Origin: Campylobacter sp. VBCF_01 NA2
GTDB taxonomy: Bacteria > Campylobacterota > Campylobacteria > Campylobacterales > Campylobacteraceae
Direction of reading: 5' to 3'
Length of the DNA stretch: 64,000 nt
NCBI RefSeq assembly: GCF_027797205.1
Contig: NZ_CP115607.1
Span: 806,001-870,000, forward strand
The position numbers and the translations under genes were made by a program. The notes beneath the pieces were generated by a model, which was not told the origin of the DNA, ran no database searches, and saw nothing but the letters and a program-made list of their open reading frames with translations. Below, piece after piece: positions 40,986 through 51,289 of the stretch (position 1 is the stretch's first letter; each line of letters starts with the position of its first letter).

Positions 40986-41927
40986 ATGCAAAATCTAATC
41001 ATAGCCACCCGCGGAAGCGTGCTAGCTCTGTGGCAAAGCGAACACATAAAATCGCTAATCGAGCAAAAACACGGCGTTAAGGTCGAGCTAAAAAGCATGA
41101 AAACCAAGGGCGATAAAATTTTAGACACACCGCTTGCAAAAATCGGTGGCAAGGGGCTATTTACCAAAGAGCTAGAAGAGTGTATGCTCCGAGGCGAAGC
41201 CCACCTAGCCGTGCATAGCCTAAAAGATGTGCCAGTTGTGTTTCCCGAGGGTCTAGTTTTGGCTGCAATCGGCGCTAGGGAGGACGAAAGGGACGCGATG
41301 ATTAGCGAAAAATACGCTAAATTTAGCGACCTACCAAATGGCGCTAAAATCGGCACCACGAGCCTTCGCCGTAAAATGCAACTTCTAAAAATGCGCCCTG
41401 ATTTAGAGATTATTTCGCTTCGCGGAAATGTCCAAACACGCCTCAAAAAGCTAAAAGACGGCGAATTTGACGCGATAATTTTAGCAATGGCTGGGATAAA
41501 TAGGCTAAATTTAAGAGCCGAAGTGGCGCATGTTTATACCTTCGAGCTCGATGAAATGGTGCCTGCAATGGGTCAAGGCGCACTTGGGATTGAGTGTGCC
41601 GACAAAAAAGAGTTGCTAGAAATTTTAAATTTTATAAACGACGAAAACAGCGTGCTTGCGACAAATTTAGAAAGGGCGTTTGTGGCGAGATTGGAGGGCG
41701 GTTGCCAGGTGCCAATCGGCGTAAATGCGCAAATCTCAGATGATAGCGTGATCGTGCGCGCGGTCGTGGGACTGCCTGATGGAAGCGAGTTTATCGAGGA
41801 TAAACTCTGCCTTGCACGCGCAGGAATCGATGCGAAAATGGCGCAAAAAATCGGCGCAAATTTTGCTGATAAATTTATCGCCAAAGGGGCAAAAGAGCTT
41901 CTAGCCCGCGCCGAAGCTATGGCGTAA
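40986..41927 (+). CDS. hemC: Hydroxymethylbilane synthase
   Basis: HemC joins four porphobilinogens in haem synthesis. The 313-residue protein has ATRGSVLALWQSEHIK, KGLFTKELEE, HSLKDVP, SLRGNVQTRL and the dipyrromethane-cofactor cysteine in EGGCQVPIG. It starts directly after the FxsA stop and is followed by a strong hairpin. Confidence 0.96.
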   Translation: MQNLIIATRGSVLALWQSEHIKSLIEQKHGVKVELKSMKTKGDKILDTPLAKIGGKGLFTKELEECMLRGEAHLAVHSLKDVPVVFPEGLVLAAIGAREDERDAMISEKYAKFSDLPNGAKIGTTSLRRKMQLLKMRPDLEIISLRGNVQTRLKKLKDGEFDAIILAMAGINRLNLRAEVAHVYTFELDEMVPAMGQGALGIECADKKELLEILNFINDENSVLATNLERAFVARLEGGCQVPIGVNAQISDDSVIVRAVVGLPDGSEFIEDKLCLARAGIDAKMAQKIGANFADKFIAKGAKELLARAEAMA

Positions 41928-41978: not shown

Positions 41979-42086
41979 TCTACAAAATTTTAAAATTTCA
42001 AATTCCACGAAACGCTAAGCTTGAATTTTATTTTTGGATAATTTGCGCTTATTTCAAAGAACTCATCGAAAGGCTAAAACAAGTTT

Positions 42087-42227
42087 TTACTCGCTGCAAC
42101 CGCCCAAAAGAGCCAAAAAGCCTAAAATCGACCAGCCAGTCGGCAAATCAAAAAACCTTTTTCCCACCCATGAAATTAAGCCGATTATGATAAACACATA
42201 TAAAAGTCCTAGCGCGACATTTTCCAT
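42087..42227 (-). CDS. 46-residue membrane protein
   Basis: A small reading frame, MENVALGLLYVFIIIGLISW then VGKRFFDLPTGW and a second hydrophobic run ending GGCSE. It gives two short membrane segments joined by a Lys-Arg-Phe-Phe-Asp-Leu-Pro turn. A ribosome site (AAAGG) lies at suitable distance, and a minus-strand TATAAT is at 42290-42295. No family is recognised. It is convergent with hemC and lies downstream of the tRNA-like RNA cluster on the same strand. Confidence 0.65.
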   Translation of the reverse strand: MENVALGLLYVFIIIGLISWVGKRFFDLPTGWSILGFLALLGGCSE

Positions 42228-42289
42228 AAATTTGCCTTTGTATGATGAATTTGCTCTGCTTTGGCTACGCCTTTGCTTTGCTTATTTAG

Positions 42290-42295
42290 ATTATA
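42290..42295 (-). promoter_or_regulatory. -10 box for the 46-residue protein gene
   Basis: A minus-strand TATAAT lies just outside unit A of the RNA cluster and about 63 nt before the start codon. The leader between them is about 55 nt. Confidence 0.45.
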
Positions 42296-42303
42296 TAAAA
42301 TTT

Positions 42304-42405
42304 AAATCTAAGAGCGGTAGGACTCGCACCTACAATACGCAATCTTATCCTGCTTTTAAAGGGATTGCCCGGACTACTATGTTACCGCCATCAACTCTTA
42401 GATTT
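42304..42405 (-). ncRNA. tRNA-like structured RNA, unit A
   Basis: A 102-nt minus-strand unit closed by a 12-bp stem (AAATCTAAGAGT with GCTCTTAGATTT, one G-U pair). Inside, 42317-42333 forms a T-arm (GTAGG-TGCGAGT-CCTAC). A D-arm-like ATG-GCGGTAA-CAT lies at 42379-42391. An arm GCAATC/GATTGC encloses an 18-nt loop with CCTTTAAAAG, and a 5-nt variable-like GTATT precedes the T-arm. The order recalls a tRNA, but the 10-nt linker before the arm and the large loop do not fit. I could not fit a standard or selenocysteine tRNA. Confidence 0.5.
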
Positions 42406-42431
42406 TAAAAGAGCTAGCCAAGCTCTTGGCA

Positions 42432-42536
42432 TTTATGTTTGCGGTAAAGACTTATACCCGCGACCCTAACAAAAGGGCTGAACTTACCCAAAGTGGCTAC
42501 TTTTGGGTGGCAATCGCAGTCTTAATTCAACATAAA
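42432..42536 (-). ncRNA. Structured RNA, unit B (degenerate)
   Basis: A 105-nt minus-strand unit closed by TTTATGTT/AACATAAA, with an inner 6-bp pairing (AAGACT/AGTCTT), a 7-bp hairpin ACCCAAA/TTTGGGT and a small CCCT/AGGG hairpin. A segment near its 3' side (GGTATAAGTCTTTACCGC) aligns with the T-arm region of unit A (GGTGCGAGTCCTACCGC), but its T-stem is not conserved. It may be a decayed relative or an independent structured RNA. Confidence 0.4.
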
Positions 42537-42557
42537 GCTTTAATAAAAATTTCAAAG

Positions 42558-42643
42558 GTAATAAATGGTGACGAGAGTTGAACTCGCGATGGCACTATTT
42601 AAACGGCGCAACACGACCACATGGTATATCTGCCACTTATTAC
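42558..42643 (-). ncRNA. tRNA-like structured RNA, unit C
   Basis: An 86-nt minus-strand unit closed by an 11-bp stem (GTAATAAGTGG with CCATTTATTAC, one G-U pair). The hairpin at 42571-42587 (GCGAG-TTCAACT-CTCGT) matches the T-arm of tRNA-Gly in this window at 16 of 17 positions. The remaining 45 nt contain a GCGC/GTGC arm with TTTAAA in its loop. The acceptor is too long for a tRNA and no standard anticodon arm forms. It starts 7 nt after a TACAAT -10 box. Confidence 0.5.
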
Positions 42644-42649
42644 GCTTAT

Positions 42650-42655
42650 ATTGTA
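42650..42655 (-). promoter_or_regulatory. -10 box for the tRNA-like RNA cluster
   Basis: A minus-strand TACAAT behind a T-rich stretch (CTTTTTTGA) places a likely start near 42643, exactly at the first base of unit C. This supports transcription of units C, B and A as one RNA. Confidence 0.45.
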
Positions 42656-42901
42656 TCAAAAAAGTGAAATTTTACCAAAATAATAAATTTTAAAACAACT
42701 CACGAGAGCGAGAGCTTAACGCATAGTATGATTAAAAGTCTGTATCATACTCGCCACCAAAAATGGCTAAAAAAATTAAATTCTTTTTGATAATTAATAT
42801 AAAATTTTTTTAAGTAAATTTAGTATATAAATACCTATATATGGTTATTTTATCAAAATTTATCTATTTTGACTTTTATATTTTTTTAAATAAATTTCGA
42901 A

Positions 42902-42938: not shown

Positions 42939-43847
42939 ATGAAATTAGAAAATTTAGAAATTTTAGAAAATTCGACAGATTACGATGCTAACGATACGGA
43001 CGAGATTATGCTTAGTATCGGCTGGATGAGCGATGAGCTTTATAAACAAAGGCAAGGGCGAGATTGGGCGTGGTCGCATTGGGATGTCGATAGAAGCTAT
43101 GATTATACGGCTATTGCGAAACTTGACGGCAAAGTTATAGGCTCATTACAAGCTATGTGCGATAGAGATAATTTTGATAAAAGTTTTCTATATTCTATTA
43201 TTGTTCATAAAGATTTTCAAAGAAAAGGTGTAGCAAAAGCGCTAATGAAGGCATTTGATAGCAAATTTTCTCACACAAAAGTTTTTACGATAGCTCCCGT
43301 TAAAAACGGCAAAATTGAGGCAGAGAAATTCCTAAATTTTTGTGGATTTAAACAAGAAAAAGAGAAGAAAATTTGTGCCAAATTTAAAGATTACAAATAT
43401 GATAAAACAAGCGAAAATAAAGAAAGCAAAATTGCAAATTTAGAAATTTTGGAAAATTGTGCAAATTTTAATCTAAATGATATAAAAGAAATTCGTGCAT
43501 CAATCGGTGCAAAATCGCAAAATATCGCACTTTTAGACGAACTTAGAAATGTGGATTATTACGCAGTGGCAAAAATTGGTGAGAAAGCAGTTGGCATTTT
43601 AACGGCATTTTGCGATAGAGATAGGGCATTTACTGGCTATCTTCATAGCGTTGAAGTTCATAAGGATTATCAAAGACAAGGCATAGGACGAGCTTTGATG
43701 AGAGCTTATAATCGCTATTTTGGCGATAAAATTATGACTTTTGCAGCCGTGCCTACAAAAAACGGCGATGAAAATATAAAATTTTTATCAAATTTCGGTT
43801 TTGTAGAAAGAGCAGAATTTTTCGCACCTTTTTGCAGAGAAAAATAG
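42939..43847 (+). CDS. Protein with two GNAT N-acetyltransferase domains
   Basis: A 302-residue protein made of two related halves. Both begin NLEILEN and contain an acetyl-CoA motif: KDFQRKGVAKALM (about residue 93) and KDYQRQGIGRALM (about 246). CDRD and V(H)KD blocks repeat too, so this is an internal duplication. GNAT proteins acetylate amines in small molecules, proteins or aminoacyl-tRNA. The target is unknown. It is divergent from the tRNA-like RNA cluster and its codon use is more AT-rich than its neighbours, suggesting acquisition. Confidence 0.82.
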   Translation: MKLENLEILENSTDYDANDTDEIMLSIGWMSDELYKQRQGRDWAWSHWDVDRSYDYTAIAKLDGKVIGSLQAMCDRDNFDKSFLYSIIVHKDFQRKGVAKALMKAFDSKFSHTKVFTIAPVKNGKIEAEKFLNFCGFKQEKEKKICAKFKDYKYDKTSENKESKIANLEILENCANFNLNDIKEIRASIGAKSQNIALLDELRNVDYYAVAKIGEKAVGILTAFCDRDRAFTGYLHSVEVHKDYQRQGIGRALMRAYNRYFGDKIMTFAAVPTKNGDENIKFLSNFGFVERAEFFAPFCREK

Positions 43848-43942: not shown

Positions 43943-45127
43943 TCAAATTTCACCCTTTATCTTTTTAAGCCACTCATCTAGCGTTTTTTCAAATCCGATT
44001 TGTTTGCTGTGGTAAAATTTCACTTTCGCACTAGTGTATTCTTGCTCCACCCAGCCACCGAAATCATGCGGATAAAGGTAGTTTGCGATCTCTTTGTCCG
44101 AGTTTATCAAATGCCTTGGCGTAGGCAAAATTTCGCCCTCTCGCACGAATTTCAAAGCCTCGTTTATGGCGTTGTAAGCAGAGTTTGATTTGGGCGAGTG
44201 TGCCAAATACACCGCGCATTGTCCCAGTATTATGCGAGCTTCTGGGTAGCCGATTTTGCTGACTGCCAAAAGCGTATTAACCGCCATATTTAGGGCATTT
44301 GGATTGGCGTTGCCAATATCTTCGCTAGCTAGAATTACCATGCGCCTAGCGATGAAATCCGCACTCTCGCCAGCCTCGATTAGGCGCGCCACATAGTATA
44401 GTGCGGCGTCCGCGTCGCTTCCACGCAGGCTTTTTATCATCGCGCTTGCTAGCTCGTAGTGCGTATCGTCCGAGCTTACCCCCTGTGCTACGGCACTCGC
44501 GCGCAGTGTTTTTAGCGTATCGAGAGAGATTTTACTATCAGCCAAAATCGCAAATTCGAGCAAATTTAAAAGACTTCGCCCGTCCCCTGCGCTAGTGTGT
44601 ATGAGATACTCTCTGGCATCATCATCGCACGCGAAGCCCAGCTCGCCCTGCACCCGCTCAAAAAGCTCGCTCATTTCCTGCGCCCCCAAAGGCTCAAACT
44701 CGAAAATCATCGAGCGAGAGCGAATCCCAGAGCTTATGACAAACTGCGGATTTTCCGTGGTCGCGCCGATTATTATCGCTTCGTAATTTTCCATTGGGAT
44801 TAGCAAAACCTCTTGCTGGGTTTTGCTTAGGCGGTGGATTTCGTCGATGAAAATCAGCGGTTTGGCTAGCACGCCAGAGTGCGTAGATAGGATTTTGCGG
44901 ATATCTTCGACTTTTAGGCTCGTGGCGTCAAGCTCGTAAAAATCGTAGTTCAGCTCGCTTGCGAGCACGCGCGCCATAGTGGTTTTGCCACACCCTGCCG
45001 CGCCGAAAAATATACTATGCGGAATTTTGCCAGAGGCGATAAATTTTTTAAAAAGCTCCACGATTTTTTTCTGACCTAGAATTTCATTTAAGCTTTTGGG
45101 ACGAAATTTTAGCGCTAGACTTTGCAT
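43943..45127 (-). CDS. rarA: Replication-associated recombination protein RarA (MgsA)
   Basis: A 394-residue AAA+ ATPase acting at stalled forks. Walker A is GAAGCGKTTMARVLA, Walker B is FIDEIHRLSK, sensor 1 is GATTENP, and the C-terminal DDTHYELASAMIKSLRGSDADAALYY block is diagnostic of the family. The ATG at 45127 (MQSLALKFRPK) follows AAAGG and is the right start; an upstream extension of 27 residues lacks support. Confidence 0.93.
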   Translation of the reverse strand: MQSLALKFRPKSLNEILGQKKIVELFKKFIASGKIPHSIFFGAAGCGKTTMARVLASELNYDFYELDATSLKVEDIRKILSTHSGVLAKPLIFIDEIHRLSKTQQEVLLIPMENYEAIIIGATTENPQFVISSGIRSRSMIFEFEPLGAQEMSELFERVQGELGFACDDDAREYLIHTSAGDGRSLLNLLEFAILADSKISLDTLKTLRASAVAQGVSSDDTHYELASAMIKSLRGSDADAALYYVARLIEAGESADFIARRMVILASEDIGNANPNALNMAVNTLLAVSKIGYPEARIILGQCAVYLAHSPKSNSAYNAINEALKFVREGEILPTPRHLINSDKEIANYLYPHDFGGWVEQEYTSAKVKFYHSKQIGFEKTLDEWLKKIKGEI

Positions 45128-45195
45128 GATTAACCTTTGAAATTTAATGCGTGATTGTAGCGAAGTAAGGATAAATTTTAAGTTACACGCCAAAT

Positions 45196-45219
45196 TTACG
45201 AAGCGCAAAGGCTTCGTAA
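45196..45219 (-). terminator. Hairpin after the DUF1328 gene
   Basis: A 9-bp stem TTACGAAGC/GCTTCGTAA with a 6-nt loop starts 1 nt after the stop codon. There is no strong T-run. Confidence 0.45.
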
Positions 45220-45571: not shown

Positions 45572-48500
45572 TTAAAACCTAAATGTCAATCCGACATTTC
45601 CGCTATATCCGCGCTCTTTGCCAGTATAACCTTTCGCGCCGACTTCGAATTTAAGCTTTCCACTATCATAGACATAGCCGATTTCGCCGATACCTGTTGA
45701 GCCTTTTAGTTTAGGACTTGCGATGTCTGCACTTCCAAAGGTTGGTAAGCTTAGAGTTCCTTTTGCTTCGCCGTCAAATTCATATTGATATGTTGCACCT
45801 ACATAAAGTTTGCTTGTGTCGCTAAATTTGATATTATCTTTAACACCAACTTGCGCTCTAAGCGAAGTTACGCTATCAAAGTGCGTATTTACGCCATTTA
45901 GAACAAGGTCATTTCCTGCTGTTTTAGCCCAAATTCCACGAGCAAAAATATCAAGGTCATTTGAATTCGATAATGCAATTTCTTTGCCAAGCCCCAAATG
46001 AGCGCCATAGTAAGTGTTGCTTATATCAAATTCTTTATAAGCAGCTGTTGTTTCGTATTCGGTTTTTACTTGACCTACTCTACCGCTTACTTCTGTGTAG
46101 AAGTTATTTAAAGTAGTAAATCTAGCAAAAGCGCCACCGCCAATGAACTCAGTCTTACCGCTTCCTTTTGTGCCGTCATCTAAAAAGCTATCATACTCTC
46201 CTTTGCCGTATTCTACAAATAGACCTGTTGTTAAATTTCCGCTACTGAAATAATCATTTCCTGCGATACCTGCGTTTGCATTAAAGCCTTTTATGTCTAT
46301 GTGTGAGCCTGTTGTCATCTCTTTGTCATATCCGCTTACAAAGGCAAATGCTACTGCTTTTCCTGTTTGGGTATCGTTATTTAATGAATTTGCATTACTT
46401 GCACTGCTAGAATTTGCATTGTTTGCAGCATTTGCAACGCTACCTAAATTTGATACAAGTAAATTTGCTCCTTCATTTACCGCTGTGCTTTGAGATAGTT
46501 TGGTTTCTAGTAGGATTTTTGCACCGGCATTGTTTGCAGTGATATTGCCTATACCGCTACCACCGCCAGAGCCTGTTCCTGTGCCTGAACCGCCTGTACC
46601 TGTTCCACTACCACTACCACCAGTGCCTGAACCACCAGTGCCTGAACCACCAGTGCCTGAACCGCCAGTGCCTGAACCGCCAGTGCCTGAACCACCGCCA
46701 GTGCCTGAACCACCGCCAGTGCCTGAACCACCGCCAGTGCCTGAACCACCGCCAGTGCCTGAACCACCGCCAGTGCCTGAACCACCGCCAGTGCCTGAAC
46801 CACCTGTATCAGGGTCGCCGCTAAATGATAGGTCTAAATTTTTGCTGGTGCTATCAACGGCGATTTTACCTGCTATATTTATAAGTCCTGCGATATTAAC
46901 ATTTGTTAAATTTGCTTTGCCGTTTGCTTCTGCAAAGCCTGTTATGCTTCCGGCTGTTTGGATAAGATGAATTTTATCATCTTTGCTTGTTATGCCTGTG
47001 GCGTCTTTTAGGTAGGCATTTACTTTTGTGCCACTCAAATCAACAGAATTTGCGACTTTCAAGGCAGTTTCATCTTTGGCGACATTGCTTGGCAGATAGA
47101 AATTTATCTCTTTTGCCTTTAAAGCAGAAATATCATAAATGTCCATTACCATAGCATCGCTACTATCGCCGAAATTTGCGGTTTTTACATCTATACTAGC
47201 TCCCTTATCAAATGTCGAACCGCCTTTTATGTCTAGGGTTGAACCACTACTTATCACGCTTCCGACATTATGAGCGTTTGTTAGATTTATGGTTGCAGAA
47301 TTTGCGATATTTATGTTAAGTTTAGCATAGTTGCTATTTGCTAAATTTACAGTTATGCCGTCTTTTATACCTGCTTCGTCATCGCCGAAAGTATCGCCTG
47401 TGATAGTTTCGACCGAATTTGCCGTGCTAGTAATATATAGGTCTTTTTTGTCGCTACTTTGGAAAATTCCGCCTTTGGCGACATTATACTGGGTCTCTCC
47501 AATTACATTAAAGACATTGCCGAAGCTTTGAGTGGCTAAAAGCCATGTGTTATCTACGCTTATTTCACCGCCACTTTTTAGTAGATAGTATTTGTTTCCT
47601 GTGCCGTCAATGTATGAGCTAAGGTTATCTACGGTTATATTTGTTTTTGCTAGGTCGGTTGGGTCTGAGCCAGTTAGAGTTAGCGCAACTTCATTGGCAC
47701 TTAAATCTGAGTAGAAGTTTAAGTTATCGAAATTTATGATATTTCCAGCTTTAAGATTTTTTGCCTTTGTTGTGCTACTGCCTATGTTTAGGGTGTTGCC
47801 TTTACTTGCAGATGATCCGCCATCAAAGCCAACTATCATAGCAGTCGATGTATCTCCGCCTAGAAGCGTTACGGTGTTGTCACTTACTTCGCCATAACCG
47901 CTAGTATCTCCGGCAAAAATACCGTCATATACGGTACCGCCGTTTATGATGATTTCATTACCGCTGACTTTTCCTGTGTCGCTAGTCAAACCGCCCACAA
48001 CTGTATTTATCTCTCCGCCGTTTATAAAGACTTTATTACCGCTTACTTCGCCATAACCGCTAGTACCACCGTATATCAAAGGAACAAATCCTTTGTTAAG
48101 ATTTACCGTATTACCGCTAACATCTTCATCGATGCCATAACCTCCACCGCCAGGGATACCAAAAAAAAATGGTTTTGCACCTACTAAATCGATATTTACG
48201 ATATTTCCGCTATATGATACAGCAGTAGTTCCGCCTGTGCCATTACTTGAAGTAGCGTCTGTGATAGTTACTAGCTCGTCGCTACCAAATCCACCCGTGA
48301 TAGCAAATTCTTGCTCTACTTCGTTGCCTTTGTCATCTACCATAGTGCGAGTAAATTTATTTGCGTCTGTGATAGTAAAGATTTTATCCTTAGATGACCA
48401 AATCGCAGTCGGTGTCGGCGGTGTTGCACTAAAATACAAATCCAAATTCTTGCTATCATCTGCTAGTTTGACATAGCCTTTGAGATCTAATAAACCTGCT

Positions 48501-51289
48501 ATATTTACATTTGTTTGCTCTGCGTTGTTGTTTGCAGGTGCGCTTAGAGTTCCAGCTGTTTGTATTAGATGAACTACGCTGTCAGCCTTTAAATTTGAAG
48601 CATTTTTTAGATACGCATTTACAGTTGTTTTACTTAAATCAGTTTCGCCTGTATCAGACAAGCTTAGAGCGATTGCTTTATCAGCTATACCGCTATGCAA
48701 ATAGAAATTTATTTTATCGAATTTATAAATTTGTTTTGCTTGTAGTGTTTTTCCTACTGCAAGTGGATTTGATAAGCTTTCGCCTATGTTTAGGGTGTTG
48801 CCGCTTGCAGTACGAGCACTTTCATAGCCGTATATCCTAGCTCCTGATAGGTCACCGTCTAGAAGTGTTACTATGTTGTTATTTGATTCGGAATGTGTGC
48901 TATGACCGCCAACAATTGAACTGCCATCTTTAAAGATTCCACCTTTTATAACGACTTTATTATCACTAACTATTCCTGCTGTTCCCGAGCCATTAGACCA
49001 ACCACCATAAACATAATCTAACCGTCCACCGTTTATGATAACTGAGTTACCGCTAACTTCGTTACCTCCACTAAAACCACCTTGCGCACCTCTAATATAT
49101 GTTCCGCTATTTACATTTACTGTGTTTCCACTAACTTTTTCATTAGTGTTATAATCTCCGCCACCTAATATAGAATAATCTCGAACGAAATTTGTTCCTA
49201 AATCTACATTTACGGTATTTCCGCTATATGATGCAGTAGTAGTTCCCCCTGCGCCATCGCTTGAAGTAGCGTCTGTGATAGTTACTAGCTCGTCTTTGCT
49301 ATCAAATCCACCCGTGATAGCAAATTCTTGCTCTACTTCGTTGCCTTTGTCATCTACCATAGTGCGAGTAAATTTATCAAATGCTGTGATATTAAAGATT
49401 TTATCCTTAGATGACCACTTCACAGGGTCGCCGCTAAATGATAGGTCTAAGTATTGAGCCGTGCTATCAACGGCGATTTTACCTGTTACATTGATAAGAC
49501 CTGCGATATTAACATTAGTTAAATTTGCATTGCCGTTGGCTTCGTCAAAGCCTGTTAGAGAACCTTTTGTTTGGATTAGATGAATTTTATCATCTTTGCT
49601 TGTTAAGCCTGTGGCGTCACTTAGATAAGCATTTACTTTTGTGCCTGCTAGGTTTTTCGTGCCGGTATTTTGCAGACTTAGAGCAACATTTCCGTTAGAA
49701 ACATCGCTTGGCAAATAGAAATTTAGCTCTTTTGCTATTATATCGCCTACTATAATCGAACCTAATCTCATAGCGTTTTTACTATCGCCGAAATTTATAG
49801 CCTTATTTGTAGCTACCGTTCCACCGATATAAGCCCCGGCGGCTGAGAAGTTGATATTGCCTTGGGCTGAGTTTAAACCGCCTATTATCGATAAAGGTGC
49901 ATTTGCCGTTATATCATTTGTAGCATAAAAACTACCGGTAGCGGTTATCGTCCCTGTGCCTAATAAATTTAGGCTCTTGCCATGCACTAATTCTCCTGTA
50001 AATGACGAAGAATTTATATTTATATCACTATTTAAAGCCACTACATTTCCGACATTTGTAGCTTTATTAAAATTTATCGTAGCTTGTCTAGACGGAGATA
50101 AATTTATTTTTAGATTACTATAAGAATTATCTGCTAAATTTATAGTTATGCCGTCTTTATCGGTTCCTGCTTCGTTATCGCCGAAAGTATCGCCGATGAT
50201 AGTTTCGACCGAATTTGCCGTGCCTGTAATATATAGGTCTTTTTTGTCGCTACTTTGGAAAATTCCGCCTTTGTCGACATTATACTCTGTTTTTGAAGTT
50301 ACATTAAAGATTTTTCCCGTAACTCTTTGAGTGCTTTTTAACCAAGTATCATTTACCTTTATAGTTCCTGTGCCTGTGTTTTTTAGCAAGTAGTATTTAT
50401 TTCCTGTGCCGTCAATGTATGAGCTAAGGTTATCTACGGTTATGGTTGTGTTTGTTAGGTTTGTTGTATCTGCGCCTGTTAATCTTAGGGCAACTTCGTT
50501 GGCATTTAAATCTGAGTAGAAGTTTAAGTTATCGAAATTTATGATATTTCCGGCTTTAAGATTTTTTGCCTTTGTTGTGCTGCTGCCTATGTTTAGGGTG
50601 TTATTTTTATTTGCAGCATTATTACTACTATAAAAGCCAACTATCTTAGCAGTCGATGTATTTCCGCTTAGAAGTGTTACGGTATTGTTGCTGACTTCGT
50701 CACTATTGCTATCTCCGGCATAAATACCGATATTTACGGTACCGCCGTTTATGATGATTTCATTACCGCTGACTTTTCCTGTGTGTTTAGTCCAACCGCC
50801 ATAAACAAGTTCTAACTGTCCACCGTTTATAAAGACTTTATTACCGCTTACTTCGCCATAACCGCTAGTATCACCGTTTATCAACCTAACAAATCCTTTG
50901 TTAAGATTTACCGTATTACCGCTAACTTTTTCATTAGTAGTATAATCTCCGCCGCCAAATATATCGTAGTAATTAGACGAATTTGTTCCTAAATCTACAT
51001 TTACGGTATTTCCGCTAAATGAGTTAGCAAAAGTTCCCCCTGTGCCATCACTTGAAGTAGCACCCGTGATAGTTACTAGCTCGCCACTATCAAAAGTACC
51101 CGTGACAGCAAATTCTTGCTTTTTTTTATTGCCTTTATCATCTACCATAGTGCGAGTGAATTTATCACTAGCTGTGATATTAAAGGTTTTATCATCAGAT
51201 GACCAAGTCTCAGCCGATAATGATAAATTTGGAGTAACCGCCATGAGCGTAGCTGCTGCTACGACGCTAAATTTGAGTGGATTTTTCAT
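45572..51289 (-). CDS. Large autotransporter adhesin-like protein
   Basis: A 1905-residue type V secreted protein. Residues 1-26 form a signal peptide. The passenger has three related modules, each starting near W-S-S-(D/K)-D-K-(T/I)-F, at about residues 28, 625 and 964. All contain KFTRTMVDDKGN and repeated SGNTVNV/SGNKVFINGG strands typical of a beta-helix. A Gly/Thr/Ser-rich linker of GGGSGT and GGSGT units lies at about 1497-1558. A beta-barrel of about 270 residues ends in GLTFRF. AAGGGGA precedes the start. It is probably surface-exposed; the ligand is unknown. Confidence 0.9.
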   Translation of the reverse strand: MKNPLKFSVVAAATLMAVTPNLSLSAETWSSDDKTFNITASDKFTRTMVDDKGNKKKQEFAVTGTFDSGELVTITGATSSDGTGGTFANSFSGNTVNVDLGTNSSNYYDIFGGGDYTTNEKVSGNTVNLNKGFVRLINGDTSGYGEVSGNKVFINGGQLELVYGGWTKHTGKVSGNEIIINGGTVNIGIYAGDSNSDEVSNNTVTLLSGNTSTAKIVGFYSSNNAANKNNTLNIGSSTTKAKNLKAGNIINFDNLNFYSDLNANEVALRLTGADTTNLTNTTITVDNLSSYIDGTGNKYYLLKNTGTGTIKVNDTWLKSTQRVTGKIFNVTSKTEYNVDKGGIFQSSDKKDLYITGTANSVETIIGDTFGDNEAGTDKDGITINLADNSYSNLKINLSPSRQATINFNKATNVGNVVALNSDININSSSFTGELVHGKSLNLLGTGTITATGSFYATNDITANAPLSIIGGLNSAQGNINFSAAGAYIGGTVATNKAINFGDSKNAMRLGSIIVGDIIAKELNFYLPSDVSNGNVALSLQNTGTKNLAGTKVNAYLSDATGLTSKDDKIHLIQTKGSLTGFDEANGNANLTNVNIAGLINVTGKIAVDSTAQYLDLSFSGDPVKWSSKDKIFNITAFDKFTRTMVDDKGNEVEQEFAITGGFDSKDELVTITDATSSDGAGGTTTASYSGNTVNVDLGTNFVRDYSILGGGDYNTNEKVSGNTVNVNSGTYIRGAQGGFSGGNEVSGNSVIINGGRLDYVYGGWSNGSGTAGIVSDNKVVIKGGIFKDGSSIVGGHSTHSESNNNIVTLLDGDLSGARIYGYESARTASGNTLNIGESLSNPLAVGKTLQAKQIYKFDKINFYLHSGIADKAIALSLSDTGETDLSKTTVNAYLKNASNLKADSVVHLIQTAGTLSAPANNNAEQTNVNIAGLLDLKGYVKLADDSKNLDLYFSATPPTPTAIWSSKDKIFTITDANKFTRTMVDDKGNEVEQEFAITGGFGSDELVTITDATSSNGTGGTTAVSYSGNIVNIDLVGAKPFFFGIPGGGGYGIDEDVSGNTVNLNKGFVPLIYGGTSGYGEVSGNKVFINGGEINTVVGGLTSDTGKVSGNEIIINGGTVYDGIFAGDTSGYGEVSDNTVTLLGGDTSTAMIVGFDGGSSASKGNTLNIGSSTTKAKNLKAGNIINFDNLNFYSDLSANEVALTLTGSDPTDLAKTNITVDNLSSYIDGTGNKYYLLKSGGEISVDNTWLLATQSFGNVFNVIGETQYNVAKGGIFQSSDKKDLYITSTANSVETITGDTFGDDEAGIKDGITVNLANSNYAKLNINIANSATINLTNAHNVGSVISSGSTLDIKGGSTFDKGASIDVKTANFGDSSDAMVMDIYDISALKAKEINFYLPSNVAKDETALKVANSVDLSGTKVNAYLKDATGITSKDDKIHLIQTAGSITGFAEANGKANLTNVNIAGLINIAGKIAVDSTSKNLDLSFSGDPDTGGSGTGGGSGTGGGSGTGGGSGTGGGSGTGGGSGTGGGSGTGGSGTGGSGTGGSGTGGSGTGGSGSGTGTGGSGTGTGSGGGSGIGNITANNAGAKILLETKLSQSTAVNEGANLLVSNLGSVANAANNANSSSASNANSLNNDTQTGKAVAFAFVSGYDKEMTTGSHIDIKGFNANAGIAGNDYFSSGNLTTGLFVEYGKGEYDSFLDDGTKGSGKTEFIGGGAFARFTTLNNFYTEVSGRVGQVKTEYETTAAYKEFDISNTYYGAHLGLGKEIALSNSNDLDIFARGIWAKTAGNDLVLNGVNTHFDSVTSLRAQVGVKDNIKFSDTSKLYVGATYQYEFDGEAKGTLSLPTFGSADIASPKLKGSTGIGEIGYVYDSGKLKFEVGAKGYTGKERGYSGNVGLTFRF
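46617..46799 (-). repeat. Coding minisatellite in the autotransporter linker
   Basis: Five 15-nt units (46617-46691, CC(A/G)CCAGTGCCTGAA) are followed by six identical 18-nt units (46692-46799, CCACCGCCAGTGCCTGAA). Both unit sizes are multiples of three, so copy changes keep the frame and only alter linker length. Confidence 0.9.

Follow-up and report, generated by a model that had tools for sequence, protein, structure and literature searches.

Locus and RNA units

The stretch analysed here (the window) comprises 64,000 nucleotides from Campylobacter sp. VBCF_01 NA2 (contig NZ_CP115607.1, positions 806,001 to 870,000). The genome (G000) is a single contig of 1.61 Mb and falls into the same genus bin as G009. 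The subject of this report is an array of three RNA units (C, B and A) on the minus strand, between hemC (ending at 41927) and a double GNAT gene (starting at 42939; gene names are from translations), which we discuss as a candidate immunity locus against a nuclease of Mu-like phages. A previous reading made from the letters alone (the sequence-only reading) described 42304-42643 as a cluster of three RNAs that are tRNA-like yet not ordinary tRNAs. This holds for A and C, which are cloverleaf-like. The coordinates are listed in Table 1. In the conspecific genome G060, the site is empty: the match to the window stops at 42044 (96%) and resumes at 42686 (90%), and the two parts adjoin in G060.

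Table 1. Features of the RNA array and the surrounding island (positions in the window)
Feature	Position	Strand	Remarks
Variable island with C, B and A	42045..42685		missing in conspecific G060; AATTT at either edge
Putative unit C promoter	42650..42678	-	TTGGTA, 17 nt, TACAAT
Unit C, tRNA-mimic RNA	42558..42643	-	closing stem 11 bp; T-arm 42571-42587; counterpart in G012
Unit B, distinct structured RNA of ~140 nt	42401..42540	-	seen in G000 (window) and G012 only
Terminator-like hairpin, unit B end	42417..42430	-	hairpin at corresponding place in G012
Unit A, A-class tRNA-mimic RNA	42302..42406	-	closing stem 42394-42405 with 42304-42315; D-arm-like hairpin ~42370-42388; T-arm 42317-42333

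The closing helix of unit C is formed by GTAATAAGTGG and CCATTTATTAC (11 bp, including one G-U), while that of unit A has 12-13 bp; the sequence-only reading had given 11 and 12 bp. The D-arm-like hairpin that it had seen in unit A is present, and the T-arms of both units have a stem of 5 bp. Its comparison of the unit C T-arm (GCGAGTTCAACTCTCGT) with that of tRNA-Gly at 2103-2177 (GCGAGTTCGACTCTCGT) was reproduced, with 16 of 17 positions being identical. The TACAAT that it had placed 7 nt upstream of unit C is there, is preceded by TG and belongs to a sigma-70-type match of 9/12, in a promoter scan that was overall at chance level. Only for unit B did the description fail. Rather than a degenerate version of A, it is a structured RNA in its own right, for which a counterpart with 80% identity exists in a sister species. 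All 32 of its proposed pairs are kept in both copies, 2 of them through a double change, which is weak evidence with two sequences.

When ARAGORN and Rfam were applied to the window, tRNA-Gly at 2103-2177 was the only call, leaving A, B and C uncalled. A permissive Rfam scan gave just 9.9 bits at unit C, to the T-arm of tmRNA. A structural descriptor, consisting of a T-arm and a closing stem and containing no position information, has exactly two matches in the window, A and C. In the whole 975-kb set, it has 29 matches (2.5 being expected from shuffles). The folding energy of the single sequences is moderately unusual (z about -2).

A family of tRNA-mimic RNAs

A DNA search of 60 relatives identified a single homologous array, in G012, which consists of a counterpart of C, unit B and two A units in tandem. 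Other matches from that search, including some of 85% in another genus, were rejected as chance similarity of AT-rich DNA. A covariance model (R1) was built from three A units, among them that of the window, which matches R1 with E = 1e-19 (being itself a seed). R1 found strong matches in additional genomes of the same genus that are indistinguishable from noise by sequence search. Most of them are in Mu-like prophages, on the opposite strand, between muF (PF04233) and gpG (PF05069). An open-literature search (subscription papers and preprints were outside its scope) and Rfam 15 yielded no description of, and no match to, the tRNA-mimic RNAs. Differential RNA sequencing of C. jejuni found many prophage start sites in strain RM1221, and the available part of that publication names no such RNA (PMC3656092).

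In the 12 RNAs of the A class, which are collected in one alignment (A7, with window A as one row), both partners have changed in 16 of 21 pairs, a result that none of 500 shuffles attained. The covariation score is 0.636, as compared to 0.261 for shuffled and at most 0.187 for slid alignments; kinship among the sequences can push such scores upwards, and the model used to find several of the members had the stems built in, whereas the position-blind descriptor is independent of that model. A second class (F) covaries to the same degree, with two-sided changes at 13 of 20 pairs (score 0.667 vs 0.270). Covariation was counted for these two classes; the C class aligned poorly in MAFFT. A-class RNAs, window A included, have a covarying closing stem, a D-arm-like hairpin, a T-arm and invariant loop residues. 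Among the unpaired residues, AA...AGTA in the D-loop-like loop is invariant, and so is most of the T-loop.

The tRNA-mimic RNAs have a T-arm as in canonical tRNAs, with a TNCRANY-type T-loop. Instead of a 7-bp acceptor stem, a 7-nt anticodon loop and CCA, related RNAs have closing stems of 9-13 bp, a variable middle arm and no CCA, and their anticodon-like arms differ in length and loop. The closing stem and the T-stem together amount to ~15-18 bp, as compared to 12 in a usual tRNA. Stacked to this length, they should bar translation yet keep the tRNA-like elbow. Of 24 related loci tested, 12 have a perfect TATAAT that precedes the closing stem by 3-9 nt, and nine more have 5/6 matches. After the closing stem, the sequence is rich in T, and the end of the RNA overlaps or touches the muF stop. 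A and C appear to be orphans belonging to a new RNA family of tRNA mimics.

Multiple units are also found elsewhere. In C. gastrosuis (L145), three tandem tRNA-mimic RNAs follow muF. G011 (L050, 7040-7580) has an orphan array of four units, with A-class and F-class members and one unclassified unit.

Position at the end of muF

The context that decides the interpretation lies outside the window: Mu-like phages encode the relatives of A and C, opposite the 3' end of the muF gene, whose product carries a predicted nuclease domain. A search of 153 genomes of the family by the RNA alone (R1) gave 26 matches in 21 genomes. For 21 of these, sequence coding for the C-terminal domain of the MuF protein (CT) is found within ~0.6 kb; a 22nd match, in G119, has a decayed CT remnant beside it. 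The CT is on the strand opposite to the RNA in all 20 cases measured, and in 11 cases its end is 4-9 nt from the RNA edge. In G140 and G142, intact RNAs are accompanied by short CT remnants. A-class RNAs without a trace of a CT occur only in the window genome, G011 and G012, and these three genomes have no MuF match. Window A, with no MuF CT on the opposite strand next to it, is thus an orphan.

Among 80 viral contigs with MuF relatives, the best R1 matches are nearly all opposite the MuF stop. With the descriptor, L093 and L113 join them at the corresponding place. Named hosts of the RNAs include C. concisus, C. jejuni 414, C. volucris, C. gastrosuis, Helicobacter apodemus and Campylobacter phage CAM-P21. 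Similar RNAs are present at the corresponding site of Helicobacter and Geobacter MuF loci; beyond the phylum, the carriers include an uncultured Geobacter, a termite-associated proteobacterial metagenome-assembled genome and, with a looser T-loop, Desulfurobacterium. A scan of the muF 3' region for closing stems was convincing in Campylobacterota loci and a few others, and most other MuF loci were at shuffle level. In Mu itself, the PBECR of which is described as inactive, muF and the G gene overlap, so that there is no room for an RNA. The gap after muF (105 nt, 19 loci) contains no complete open reading frame (ORF) of more than 31 codons, and no frame is open in most loci, so that an ORF for an immunity protein is lacking. 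The RNA occupies the place where the immunity gene of characterized MuF toxins is located.

Other structured-looking sequences are found opposite the muF 3' end at loci with other CTs (L069, L070, L073; L074, L147; L149, L150, L153; L098, L157). In L074 and L147, the contact between D-loop and T-loop is apparently replaced by pairing (CTCCC/GGGAG vs CTCTC/GAGAG).

The C-terminal domain of MuF

MuF is a minor head protein of Mu-like phages, and the CT comprises ~190 residues. In the CT alignment, a His, a Lys and an Asp are conserved, as is a C-terminal Asn...Thr. The conserved His and the C-terminal Thr agree with the PBECR signature as given in the available part of PMC5512222. The phage CTs thus combine the residues of the PBECR/MuF_C signature (N-terminal His, C-terminal Thr/Ser) with a profile or fold match. 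The profile of the Campylobacterota CTs matches that of other MuF CTs with 99.2% probability (E 6e-20); a member of the latter profile passes the PBECR3 cut-off, and the match of Mu gpF to MuF_C falls short of the cut-off. An AlphaFold2 (AF2) model of the CT, based on 23 CTs, has a predicted local distance difference test (pLDDT) score of 88, and has fold matches among viral models, with the names 'Phage MuF C-terminal domain' and 'Nuclease'. AF2 performed poorly with five full-length MuF sequences (pLDDT 51), making a fold search from that model meaningless. As judged from these matches, the CT is a member of the PBECR/MuF_C clade of predicted RNases.

Coupling of RNA and CT

In 19 Campylobacterota loci, the distance between RNAs is correlated with the distance between CTs (Mantel, rho 0.51, p 0.0002), and not with that between MuF cores (rho -0.11, p 0.84). 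The result is unchanged for 13 dereplicated loci. Natural swaps are seen in two pairs of loci, L060/L059 and L212/L066: the cores within each pair are almost identical, and the CTs and RNAs are quite unlike. Displaced cassettes are present in G005, G009 and G001, where a further RNA of the matching class is found beside the 3' end of the displaced CT; G009 also retains a duplicated gpG start. A factor that is exchanged together with the toxin domain, with persisting old cassettes that have been displaced, is the pattern expected of polymorphic toxin-immunity cassettes. The RNAs change whenever the putative toxin changes, and they are located at the end of its gene; therefore, they are probably RNA antidotes.

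Proposed function and alternatives

We consider it likely that A and C are orphan tRNA-mimic RNA immunity factors against a capsid-delivered nuclease and that the window contains an orphan immunity array. The sequences themselves show the RNA structure, the position opposite the muF stop, the co-exchange with the CT while the core is constant, the surviving old pairs, the RNA-only arrays in genomes with no MuF match and the place of the CT in the nuclease clade; from these we infer toxicity of the CT, its inhibition by the RNA and expression of the RNA. In Mu-like phages and prophages, the RNA, behind its own promoter-like box, is convergent with muF, the protein of which ends in the CT. MuF may carry this nuclease into the cell together with the phage DNA, where it would attack tRNA or another RNA recognized through a tRNA-like elbow. 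Presenting that elbow on a cloverleaf of excess length, the RNA would sequester the enzyme and thereby protect the lysogen and its kin. The array in the window may be a polyimmunity island that shields a host not carrying the phage. Only its array position would tie unit B to this function.

Several observations weigh against this proposal. Most individual CTs are below Pfam cut-offs, and PDB searches by sequence and by fold gave no significant CT match. L062 and L063 share a common CT type and have different RNAs, so that the pairing is not strict. In Pseudomonas phage JBD67, which has a related CT, the genes overlap and there is no RNA. No relatives of unit B were found at MuF loci, and no credible CT remnants were found beside the arrays of the window, G011 and G012. 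The role assigned to the window array rests on homology, because no toxin remnant is present at the array.

The data on position and co-exchange would also fit if the RNA were a cofactor of MuF (an assembly chaperone, a packaged ligand that holds PBECR inactive in the virion, or an activator) rather than an antidote of the lysogen. In its available part, PMC5512222 calls the PBECR of Mu inactive and suggests RNA binding for it, which would also be compatible with a cofactor. However, the RNA-only arrays in G000, G011 and G012 and the RNAs beside dead toxins would need no virion cofactor, and MuF proteins without such an RNA exist, so that we regard this alternative as unlikely. It is quite improbable that the tRNA mimic serves as a decoy for a host defence that targets tRNA (e.g. 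an anticodon nuclease) and is found beside muF by chance: its shape and its location in prophages would suit a decoy, but the RNA varies with the CT rather than with the remainder of MuF, and the site is always at the CT end.

A mere convergent terminator or an antisense regulator of muF and gpG is very improbable. Such a role is suggested by the overlap or contact with the muF stop and by the T-rich sequence after the closing stem, yet a terminator would need neither a D-arm nor a T-arm with conserved loops nor covariation in every arm, and the orphan arrays have no muF to terminate or regulate. The chances are very small indeed that the units are degenerate tRNA genes or unusual translating tRNAs (suppressor tRNAs or allo-tRNAs, the latter having been offered in the sequence-only reading), despite the unit C T-arm being almost identical to that of tRNA-Gly. 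ARAGORN and Rfam do not call them, CCA is absent, the anticodon-like loops are unconserved, the stacked stems are too long, and compensatory evolution rules out simple decay. Of the other readings that had been offered, that of tRNA mimics turned out to be right, and nothing here favours substrates of RNase P/Z.

Comparison with known systems

If the RNA is an antidote, it would neutralize an RNase as in type III toxin-antitoxin systems (ToxIN type). Type III antitoxins are repeated pseudoknots encoded in one operon with the toxin. Here, the RNAs are cloverleaf-like, encoded on the opposite strand and tied to a virion protein. A type III identity was rejected, as the RNA is at the toxin 3' end and is not a co-transcribed upstream tandem-repeat pseudoknot. 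Y RNA-like (YrlA) RNAs and allo-tRNAs are unusual or non-coding RNAs with tRNA-like modules. The tRNA mimics differ from allo-tRNAs in not being 8/4 or 9/3 cloverleaves, and a Ro60/Y RNA identity was rejected, there being no TROVE (Ro60) gene in the window genome and no Rfam match.

MuF polymorphic toxins of temperate phages (PMC5576092; Bxa and Apk2, PMC11699363) share with the loci described here the MuF N-terminal domain, a variable and exchangeable C-terminal toxin and a candidate immunity factor directly after it, and toxin-free polyimmunity loci are known for other polymorphic toxins. However, the immunity factors described in these papers are proteins, which for Apk2 and Bxa are encoded next to the toxin (PMC11699363), whereas the slot is taken here by a structured RNA on the opposite strand. 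The CT belongs with the PBECR nucleases of polyvalent and MuF proteins, for which no RNA partner is described in the available part of PMC5512222.

On balance, it is more likely than not that a family of polymorphic nuclease toxins delivered by the virion has as its immunity factor an RNA rather than a protein, which acts through tRNA mimicry, and that bacteria gather such RNAs into orphan immunity islands. The same logic may extend to other structured antisense RNAs at the stops of other MuF-nuclease genes in several phyla. If PBECR has a tRNA-mimic partner, the survival of Mu-like phage lysogens in the face of a nuclease carried by the virion would be explained. The domain would gain a candidate ligand and target, and what PBECR domains cut would become directly testable. 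Also, ~100 nt of non-coding DNA, missed by gene finders, would be a route to bacterial protection.

Other features of the region

PADLOC gave no result, and no phage records resembling the DNA of the array were found. Within the island, downstream of unit A, a 46-codon ORF for a hydrophobic peptide (42090-42227, minus strand) has no relative among the 153 family genomes. The double GNAT gene, which ends at 43847 (plus strand) and adjoins the island, seems to be variable, too: in the G060 contig, the hemC side is followed by the gene at 43943-45208, and the double GNAT gene is not in between. Further along, an autotransporter-like ORF of 1905 aa (45572-51289, minus strand) carries, close to its C-terminal barrel, a long tract of Gly-Ser-Gly-Thr repeats.
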